64,000 nt of DNA from an uncultured Chlorobiota bacterium. GTDB taxonomy: Bacteria > Bacteroidota > Ignavibacteria > UBA10030 > UBA6906. How positions within the stretch are numbered: the first letter of the stretch is position 1; the number at the start of each line of letters is the position of its first letter. This document shows, piece after piece, positions 19,423-20,244 of this stretch. The notes beneath the pieces were generated by a model that made no database searches, had not been told where the DNA came from, and saw only the letters and a list, made by a program, of their open reading frames with translations. The stretch is from contig CAADGV010000033.1 in the NCBI GenBank assembly GCA_900696645.1, positions 248,001 through 312,000 on the forward strand. Reading direction: 5' to 3'. The position numbers and the translations under genes were made by a program.

Positions 19423-19451
19423 TTGCAAAGAGTCAGCGTTTTTCCTAAATT
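19423..19451 (+). promoter_or_regulatory. Candidate promoter of the tRNA-Ser island
   Basis: TTGCAA (19423-19428), 17-base spacer, TAAATT (19446-19451). The predicted start point is just upstream of the truncated tRNA copy at 19472, so one transcript would contain the fragment, hairpin A and then the intact tRNA. Confidence 0.45.
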
Positions 19452-19471
19452 CGTGCTGCATTTCTGATACT

Positions 19472-19493
19472 TGGAGAGGTGGGTGAGTGCCGA
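19472..19493 (+). pseudogene. Truncated copy of the 5' end of tRNA-Ser
   Basis: Bases 19472-19489 are identical to 19562-19579 (start of the intact tRNA-Ser), and CCGA continues the match after a one-base gap. The remaining two thirds of the tRNA are missing and are replaced by hairpin A. This is a tRNA remnant, not a functional tRNA. Confidence 0.75.
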
Positions 19494-19523
19494 CTACGCT
19501 CTAAAAGAAAGAGCTTCGTCGGC
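19489..19523 (+). repeat. Hairpin A of the TAC/TTC hairpin family
   Basis: GCCGAC-TAC-GCTCT, loop AAAAGAA, AGAGC-TTC-GTCGGC. The two stems are separated by a three-by-three internal loop TAC/TTC, which is shared with hairpins B and C although the stem bases differ. Confidence 0.7.
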
Positions 19524-19562
19524 CAGGGGCTGATTGACTTGGCAAGAAACAAATAGCAATCT

Positions 19563-19652
19563 GGAGAGGTGGGTGAGTGGCCGAAACCAGCGGTTTGCTA
19601 AACCGCCGTAGGGTGTAAAACTCTACCGAGAGTTCGAATCTCTCCCTCTCCG
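19563..19652 (+). tRNA. tRNA-Ser (anticodon GCU)
   Basis: A 90-nt class II tRNA. The acceptor stem GGAGAGG (19563-19569) pairs with CCTCTCC (19645-19651), with discriminator G19652. The anticodon loop is TTGCTAA, giving anticodon GCU for AGC/AGU codons. A long variable arm (GTAGGGTGTAAAACTCTACC) is present as expected for serine. The T arm is GAGAG-TTCGAAT-CTCTC. CCA is not encoded (GCAAG follows). Hairpin B starts at its discriminator base. Confidence 0.96.
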
Positions 19653-19694
19653 CAAGACTACGCCCCGCCAGAAGACGGCGGGGCTTCGTCTTGC
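19652..19694 (+). repeat. Hairpin B of the TAC/TTC hairpin family
   Basis: GCAAGAC-TAC-GCCCCGCC, loop AGAAGAC, GGCGGGGC-TTC-GTCTTGC. It abuts the tRNA 3' end. It may serve as a transcription or processing stop for the tRNA, but no U-tract follows (AGGCACC). Its right half (19677-19696) recurs in near-identical form at 20013-20031. Confidence 0.75.
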
Positions 19695-19733
19695 AGGCAC
19701 CTCTGTTTCCCCAGTCTTGAGTTGGACACAAGT

Positions 19734-20003
19734 ATGCCCTTTTCGTATGTGTATGTTTTGAAGAGTCTCAAGAGACGGTTTCTCTATGTCGGTTCAACAA
19801 ACGACATCCCTCGTAGAGTACAAGAGCATCACGACGGGTTGGTTCAATCTACGAAGGCATACCGTCCGTTGAAGCTTGTTGCGTACATTGCAGTTGAGTC
19901 AGAGACCAAGGCAAGAGAACTGGAAGTGTACTTGAAGACAGGATCAGGGAAGGCAGTGCTGAAGAAGCGAATTTTAACCGACGAAGCCGCTTCTCAGGCG
20001 TAG
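19734..20003 (+). CDS. Small GIY-YIG nuclease-domain protein
   Basis: An 89-residue protein that is almost entirely a GIY-YIG domain: YVYVLKSL and FLYVGSTND carry the two GIY/YIG strands, RRVQEH carries the conserved Arg, and ETKARELEVYLKTGSGK carries the conserved Glu and the C-terminal helix. Stand-alone domains of this size resemble the UvrC/YhbQ-like group. ATG 19734 is chosen over TTG 19722 because the domain starts right after it. The last nine codons and the TAG stop lie inside hairpin C, so the tail (TDEAASQA) is encoded by repeat DNA. It is flanked by hairpins B and C and a direct repeat next to tRNA-Ser, which suggests a mobile or formerly mobile cassette. Confidence 0.88.
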   Translation: MPFSYVYVLKSLKRRFLYVGSTNDIPRRVQEHHDGLVQSTKAYRPLKLVAYIAVESETKARELEVYLKTGSGKAVLKKRILTDEAASQA

Positions 20004-20008
20004 TCGGT
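19977..20008 (-). repeat. Hairpin C (inverted copy) overlapping the GIY-YIG stop
   Basis: On the plus strand ACCGAC-GAA-GCC, loop GCTTCTCA, GGC-GTA-GTCGGT. Its reverse complement has the same GAC-TAC-GCC...GGC-TTC-GTC layout as hairpins A and B. An alternative pairing of GACGAAGCC (19980-19988) with GGCTTCGTC (20017-20025) is also perfect over 9 bp. Confidence 0.7.
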
Positions 20009-20010
20009 CG

Positions 20011-20031
20011 GTGGGGGGCTTCGTCTTACAG
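20011..20031 (+). repeat. Direct repeat of the right arm of hairpin B
   Basis: GTGGGGGGCTTCGTCTTACAG closely matches the hairpin B right arm and its flank at 19677-19696 (shared core GGGGCTTCGTCTT). The two copies bracket the GIY-YIG gene as a direct repeat about 335 bases apart. Confidence 0.6.
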
Positions 20032-20244
20032 TCAATCCCTCCACATCGGCAGTTTGGCCTTCGTTTTTCCGTTCGCACAGAACACTTCATTCTTCCGCAT
20101 TACCACCCGTGGAGCGACGCCGGTCACATTTATCGGCAGGGGCTTTGTGTTTCAACGGTTTTTTTCTCATTTTTGTCTCGGGGTTTACACACTTCGCTCT
20201 CCGTCAACATTGGTCACTGAACGCATTTGAACTCAATCTCTCGT
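20032..20244. other. Intergenic leader before the polysaccharide locus
   Basis: About 210 bases without a supported gene. I looked for a promoter with the pattern found elsewhere in the window and saw no convincing match. The stretch is T-rich around 20155-20185. Confidence 0.4.

Follow-up and report, generated by a model that had tools for sequence, protein, structure and literature searches.

SegB, a free-standing GIY-YIG homing endonuclease encoded in the tRNA region of T-even phages, cuts within tRNA genes and has the motif RAWTSGAAC (PMC13096335, available text). In fungal mitochondria, mobile ORFs (mORFs) are described for atp6, atp9, cox2 and nad3, with Allomyces and Glomus as hosts; each is an endonuclease ORF that brings a replacement gene end, and the native end stays downstream as a remnant (PMC3630166, available text). 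Genomic islands and prophages with tyrosine integrases likewise have tRNA genes as safe sites of insertion, where they leave the tRNA end repeated. The double-hairpin elements of Allomyces mtDNA and similar mitochondrial repeats are paired hairpins inserted in RNA-gene regions. In the accessible parts of the open-licence full-text literature, we found no earlier description of a layout in which a cassette invades tRNA genes of bacterial chromosomes.

Here we analyse a tRNA-Ser(GCT) gene, the single tRNA gene in a 64-kb stretch of DNA (C33:248001-312000 of genome G000; hereafter the window), together with the small nuclease gene and the hairpins that adjoin it. The element found there probably belongs to a family of minimal, homing-type mobile elements with tRNA genes as their targets.

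Architecture of the tRNA-Ser locus

An earlier note on this DNA had listed, within 560 bases, a truncated tRNA 5' end, hairpins A, B and C, the intact tRNA, a GIY-YIG gene and a repeat of a hairpin arm, and every one of these parts was recovered (Table 1). The 91 nt of the tRNA gene are identical to the intact copy in a sister species (G001), and the 5' remnant plus one flanking base matches the start of the intact gene at 18/18 positions. The probable native promoter now precedes this broken 5' piece; a sigma-70 scan reported no promoter at its position. The GIY-YIG protein is the sole coding content of the unit at 19639-20008, in which no integrase was found beside an att site, and the flanking genes encode an NHL-repeat protein and an SLBB/Poly_export polysaccharide export protein. 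The note had also pointed to direct repeats that bracket the nuclease gene (19680-19699 and 20015-20034). They are pieces of hairpins, and we rejected them as ends of the element because the second copy is absent from the locus of the sister species and the tRNA 3' end forms the boundary in relatives. Judged by these relatives, the element is truly bounded by the repeated tRNA 3' end that follows hairpin C, and in the window this repeat has decayed; a clearer displaced remnant, ATCTCTCCCTCT, follows hairpin C in the sister species.

Table 1 Features of the tRNA-Ser(GCT) locus, in window positions
Feature	Position	Strand	Evidence or remark
Probable native tRNA promoter, TTG-N20-TAAATTCG, Bacteroidota-like	19423..19453	+	Sequence inspection only; conserved in L038 (sister species G001)
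Displaced tRNA-Ser 5' remnant, positions 1-17, D-loop break	19473..19489	+	Direct repeat of intact gene
Hairpin A, motif ACTACG..CTTCGT	19489..19523	+	DNA fold z -4.3
Intact tRNA-Ser(GCT)	19563..19653	+	ARAGORN; Rfam 55.7 bits
tRNA 3' segment from T-loop position 60	19639..19653	+	Presumably cassette-supplied; same segment duplicated after the element in relatives
Hairpin B, base starting at the tRNA discriminator base	19652..19694	+	18-nt arms, 89% complementary; z -6.0
Stand-alone GIY-YIG nuclease gene, 89 aa	19734 (ATG)..20003 (TAG)	+	PF01541, E 1.7e-12
Hairpin C, inverse of A/B, containing the ORF stop codon	19977..20008	+	Covariation in 17 relatives
Extra copy of hairpin B 3' arm (direct repeat of the earlier note)	20015..20034	+	18/20 match; hairpin debris
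Tentative decayed remnant of displaced tRNA 3' end, AATCCCTCC	20034..20042	+	Weak alone

The small protein has the fold and the catalytic Tyr, Arg and Glu of the GIY-YIG superfamily. Its AlphaFold model (pLDDT 90.5) has Slx1, UPF0213, UvrC and I-TevI as nearest folds, and in an alignment of relatives residues Y18, G20, R28 and E64 are invariant and Y7 is conserved in at least 90%; the element may be active at present. Comparison with TIGR01453 gave a weak match under the cut-off of that model. On the opposite strand, a 76-aa ORF (..LAERERFELS..) lies antisense to the tRNA at 19501-19731, of a type often misannotated as protein. Also antisense to the tRNA, at 19598-19652 on the minus strand, is a match to Rfam RF04351 (Plastid-psbl-rps4 3' UTR) of 45.9 bits, below the cut-off of 68; perhaps that family contains antisense tRNA-Ser.

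The arms of hairpins A and B share the sequence ACTACG/CTTCGT, and hairpin C is inverted relative to both. The exact motif GACGAAG-N{6,24}-CGTAGTC occurs four times in the 4.2-Mb genome, three of them at the window locus, and the control with the reversed pattern gave three matches in the whole genome. The set of repeats and hairpins at this locus exceeds chance. With only four motif matches in the genome, an interpretation of the hairpins as genome-wide repeats was ruled out. Across 17 relatives, 97.8% of the cells in hairpin C were paired, versus 15-41% when the pairing was slid, and compensatory double changes were seen in 6 of 11 pairs (23 cells). A conserved internal loop in the arms, CGAAG/CGTAG, consists of two G.A-type mismatches around an A-T pair; it lies on the top strand in hairpin C and on the bottom strand in hairpins A and B. 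Copies of hairpin B in the two sister species are about 90% identical across 76 nt. Hairpin A is probably an ORF-less cassette of a type that duplicates the tRNA 5' part. At one related locus (L006 1100-1470, reverse strand), tandem units resembling hairpin C (CGACGAAG..CGTAGTCG plus CGTTTTGCAGGCA) lie between tRNA-Ser and the ORF.

A shared plan in distant phyla

We searched 41 related genomes and a species-level genome collection with the window protein; most of the related loci come from metagenome-assembled genomes (MAGs). Members of its close clade share 52-73% amino acid identity with it and occur in Bacteroidota, Ignavibacteriota, Chloroflexota, Omnitrophota, Desantisbacteria, Armatimonadota, candidate-phyla bacteria (CPR) and Pseudomonadota. 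Nearly all of them lie directly 3' of a tRNA-Ser gene with one of four anticodons, in the constant order tRNA-Ser, hairpin B, GIY-YIG ORF, hairpin C and a second copy of the tRNA end. The base of hairpin B starts at the tRNA 3' terminus and the stop codon falls in or near hairpin C. The second copy comprises the last 13-17 bases of the tRNA, beginning at canonical T-loop position 60 (n=14) or 62 (n=5). When 395 genomes of the phylum were searched later, the window clade gained 13 new loci, and all 13 lie after a tRNA-Ser, as predicted. Phages yielded no close relative of the window protein, and no viral contig or phage match was obtained. Phages and plasmids were considered as carriers and rejected, the plasmid side having given one weak partial match only.

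Elements of the family measure about 0.35-0.7 kb, and clades other than that of the window duplicate the tRNA 5' part or large inner parts. Among clades the duplicated segment ranges from about 13 to 70 nt and runs to a tRNA end; with this variable length, the fixed-length target-site duplications and fixed ends of DDE/HUH transposons were not found. From a separate clade, also at tRNA-Ser, three nucleases break the tRNA at position 56, giving four '56' rows because one locus was scored twice. In Chloroflexota, both tRNA-Ser T-loop clades (break at 56 and break at 60-62) occur in the same loci (L064, L068 and L069). Outside the window clade, break points are scattered and partly blurred by hairpins inside the remnants. 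The idea that break points always fall in cloverleaf loops, suggested by locus L038 of the sister species, did not prove general once all copies were classified.

Two further loci stand out by their arrangement. In an alphaproteobacterium (L075 2310-2737), a member of the tRNA-Ser clade lies beside tRNA-Val(gac) without a tRNA remnant, which may be a target switch or a coincidence. A single-contig genome (G263:C1:120132-122165) carries five nuclease copies of equal score at an exact spacing of 450 bases, possibly a recent tandem amplification.

Association of nuclease clades with tRNA isotypes

An iterated profile gave 171 hits, among them 147 distinct copies at an E value of 1e-6 or better. 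A tRNA gene on the same strand lies within 700 bases of 107 of these 147 copies, and 91 of the 107 tRNA-adjacent nucleases have a partial copy of the adjacent tRNA across the ORF. Among the remaining 40 copies are some at contig ends, long proteins and members of other small GIY-YIG families. When tRNAs of the wrong isotype were used as a control, they matched the nuclease flank in 29 of 535 tests (5.4%). The genome of the window alone holds six elements at six different tRNA genes; all six family-profile copies in the fetched loci are tRNA-adjacent. The surroundings were compared for these six; the Pfam model adds two long proteins and one small protein in this genome, and the chance of 6 out of 7 copies being tRNA-adjacent is about 3e-14.

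A tree of 99 nucleases linked to tRNA genes requires 19 changes of isotype; the minimum is 14, the mean after shuffling 49.0, and none of 200 shuffles was as low. Nucleases at Arg, Asp, Cys and Met tRNAs each form a single group. The window clade (28 rows, support 100) spans many phyla, and 27 of its 28 rows lie beside tRNA-Ser. The deep forks of the tree are tentative because the alignment has only 72 columns. The phylogeny of the nucleases is linked to their target, with clustering by isotype and junctions specific to clades, as in homing elements.

Filled and empty sites in sister species

The tRNA loci found in the window's genome and in its sister species were fetched and compared, which gave three pairs of filled and empty sites: Gly(tcc) is filled in the window's genome, and Cys(gca) and Pro(tgg) are filled in the sister species. 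In each pair, the empty site consists of one clean tRNA, and the filled site combines an intact tRNA with the ORF and tRNA remnants. Insertions at Leu(caa) and Ser(gga) are common to both species. Presence/absence could partly reflect precise loss by recombination between tRNA repeats; gain rather than loss is favoured because the filled alleles hold remnants. In the contigs examined of a third species of the genus (G002), hairpin-filled remnants without a nuclease lie beside Gly(tcc) and Pro(tgg).

At the tRNA gene of the window, where the flanks are 86-88% identical between the two species, the sister species carries another nuclease of 35% identity, its insertion point being anticodon position 35/36 of the identical tRNA. 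Further downstream, the sister species preserves two hairpins of the window element, B and C, along with the decayed remains of a displaced tRNA end, but lacks the window ORF. The T-loop insertion is shared in this form and therefore predates the split of the two species. The differences at the locus assign the hairpin A event, a hairpin-only event in the D-loop, to the window's genome, and the anticodon event to the sister species; the D-loop break is specific to the former because the native 5' piece in the latter is unbroken to position 35.

The earlier note had suggested an insertion at a tRNA gene by a homing-like element with its own nuclease, and had proposed to look for empty sites, for multiple copies per genome and for the same order of tRNA, hairpin and GIY-YIG gene elsewhere. 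The empty sites and the six elements in one genome support the suggestion, and the order recurs in other phyla and in each of the 13 new loci. The presence/absence polymorphism expected of homing elements was seen at the three other sites, which are clean in the opposite species, but not at the window copy: no clean empty site for this element was found, G002 and G010 having no alignable tRNA-Ser(GCT) in the same orientation upstream of the flanking gene.

Remnants of tRNA genes in this genus often hold further hairpins, many of them in the T-loop between TTC and GAA. In the sister species, hairpins interrupt the displaced tRNA-Ser copy (L038 1201-2131, G001:C2) at the anticodon, in the variable loop and in the T-loop, giving it the appearance of a tRNA whose loops hold hairpins. 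Footprints that lack an ORF (L284/L291; L276/L277 of G002; L146 of G000) consist of tRNA 3' segments, some in tandem, with T-arm hairpins. The T-arm inserts of these footprints are often paired between TTC and GAA and were seen only in remnants, not in intact tRNAs.

Discussion

The arrangement of these loci is best explained if every clade has a GIY-YIG nuclease with specificity for a single tRNA isotype and a characteristic cutting place in its gene, which for the window clade would be the T-loop of tRNA-Ser at about position 59/60. Repair of the break would be templated by a cassette-bearing tRNA and would insert hairpin B, the ORF and hairpin C, along with a copy of the part of the tRNA that lies past the cut. 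Since the insert would include that copy, the resident tRNA would be rebuilt and functional, and the severed end left downstream as a remnant. Other clades would act in mirror image, resupplying the 5' part and leaving a 5' remnant upstream. The tRNA-Ser of the window would then have undergone layered invasions, at the T-loop first and later at the D-loop in the window's species and at the anticodon, by another nuclease, in its sister. The hairpins may serve as ends of the DNA element, function as RNA or shield the donor. Against this proposal, the rebuilt tRNA keeps the presumed target, and the tandem copies suggest that self-cutting is not fully avoided.

Among the described systems, SegB resembles these elements in being a GIY-YIG nuclease that adjoins tRNA genes and in the likeness of its motif to the T-loop. 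By our own equation of the two sequences, RAWTSGAAC is the reverse complement of GTTCSAWTY, which fits the T-loop sequence beside the window-clade junction. Unlike the bacterial elements, SegB is phage-borne and placed between the tRNA genes of an array, and the available text on it describes no restored tRNA, remnant or isotype-specific clades (PMC13096335). The feature typical of mORFs, an insert that supplies a gene end while the native end becomes a remnant, is found here in the 91 of 107 cases with a partial tRNA copy, and in decayed form in the window copy. However, the hosts of mORFs are mitochondrial protein genes, whereas the present target is a tRNA gene on a bacterial chromosome, which makes this a likeness in mechanism and not membership. 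Unlike mORFs, the bacterial cassettes replace either gene end, and those of the window clade are flanked by structured hairpins. By analogy, SegB and mORFs would supply the two halves of the proposed mechanism, which the bacterial elements appear to combine at tRNA genes. The T-loop hairpins of the tRNA remnants may be likened to the double-hairpin elements of Allomyces; here they accompany a bacterial nuclease cassette.

The integrase-bearing islands raise the question whether the repeated tRNA 3' end serves as an attachment site for a satellite cassette, mobilised in trans by a tyrosine recombinase. Integrase targets typically show a tRNA 3' end in direct repeat, with the intact tRNA on one side, and the window clade fits this pattern. 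Unlike such islands, the cassettes are very small, lack an integrase and carry a GIY-YIG ORF only. Their breaks also fall in the D, anticodon and variable regions, other clades duplicate 5' or large inner parts of the tRNA, and an integrase acting in trans would leave unexplained why the nuclease phylogeny tracks isotype and break point; we consider this origin very unlikely. A resident, non-mobile nuclease linked to tRNA genes through tRNA regulation, defence or toxin function, with duplications arising from chance recombination, is quite unlikely as well. Conserved catalytic residues and the copies common to the sister species at Leu(caa) and Ser(gga) would agree with residence, but not the three empty sites, the change of occupant at the window tRNA, the stop-containing decayed copies, the tandem copies and the uneven distribution among phyla.

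Slippage that passively duplicated tRNA segments in tandem, the nuclease gene being a bystander, could account for the ORF-less tRNA remnants with hairpins and for the fragments of their own tRNA found at 10 of 67 tRNA genes without a nearby nuclease, some of which are clear ORF-less footprints. Such fragments are, however, about six times commoner beside a nuclease than at nuclease-free tRNA genes, the junctions of the window clade fall on the same base in distant phyla, and isotype tracks nuclease clade; slippage as the source is highly improbable. It is barely conceivable that the endonuclease was left behind by a degenerate group I intron, even with GIY-YIG common as an intron endonuclease domain and with the sub-cut-off match to TIGR01453. 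The tRNA is uninterrupted and adjoins the ORF, neither an interrupted gene nor a conserved intron core was found, an Rfam search gave no group I intron match, and a tRNA end is present in duplicate, an outcome foreign to introns.

The element has an ordinary nuclease; new are its target, its restoration of the tRNA and its isotype-linked diversity. We see about an even chance that these elements constitute an undescribed, phylum-crossing superfamily, in which each lineage combines one isotype with one cloverleaf position, rebuilds the tRNA, has paired asymmetric hairpins as structural ends and shows layered invasions via ORF-less relatives and hairpin-filled remnants. The essential role and the conservation of tRNA genes allow an element to cross phyla when it both cuts and rebuilds them. 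This interpretation, if correct, would account for many unannotated small GIY-YIG genes in bacterial genomes, for partial tRNA copies near tRNA genes and for some turnover of tRNA ends. The cassettes would be a bacterial parallel to the gene-restoring ORFs of mitochondria and would offer an existing set of nucleases that differ in tRNA specificity, and their layered invasions at single tRNA genes would let the history of homing elements be read between sister species.
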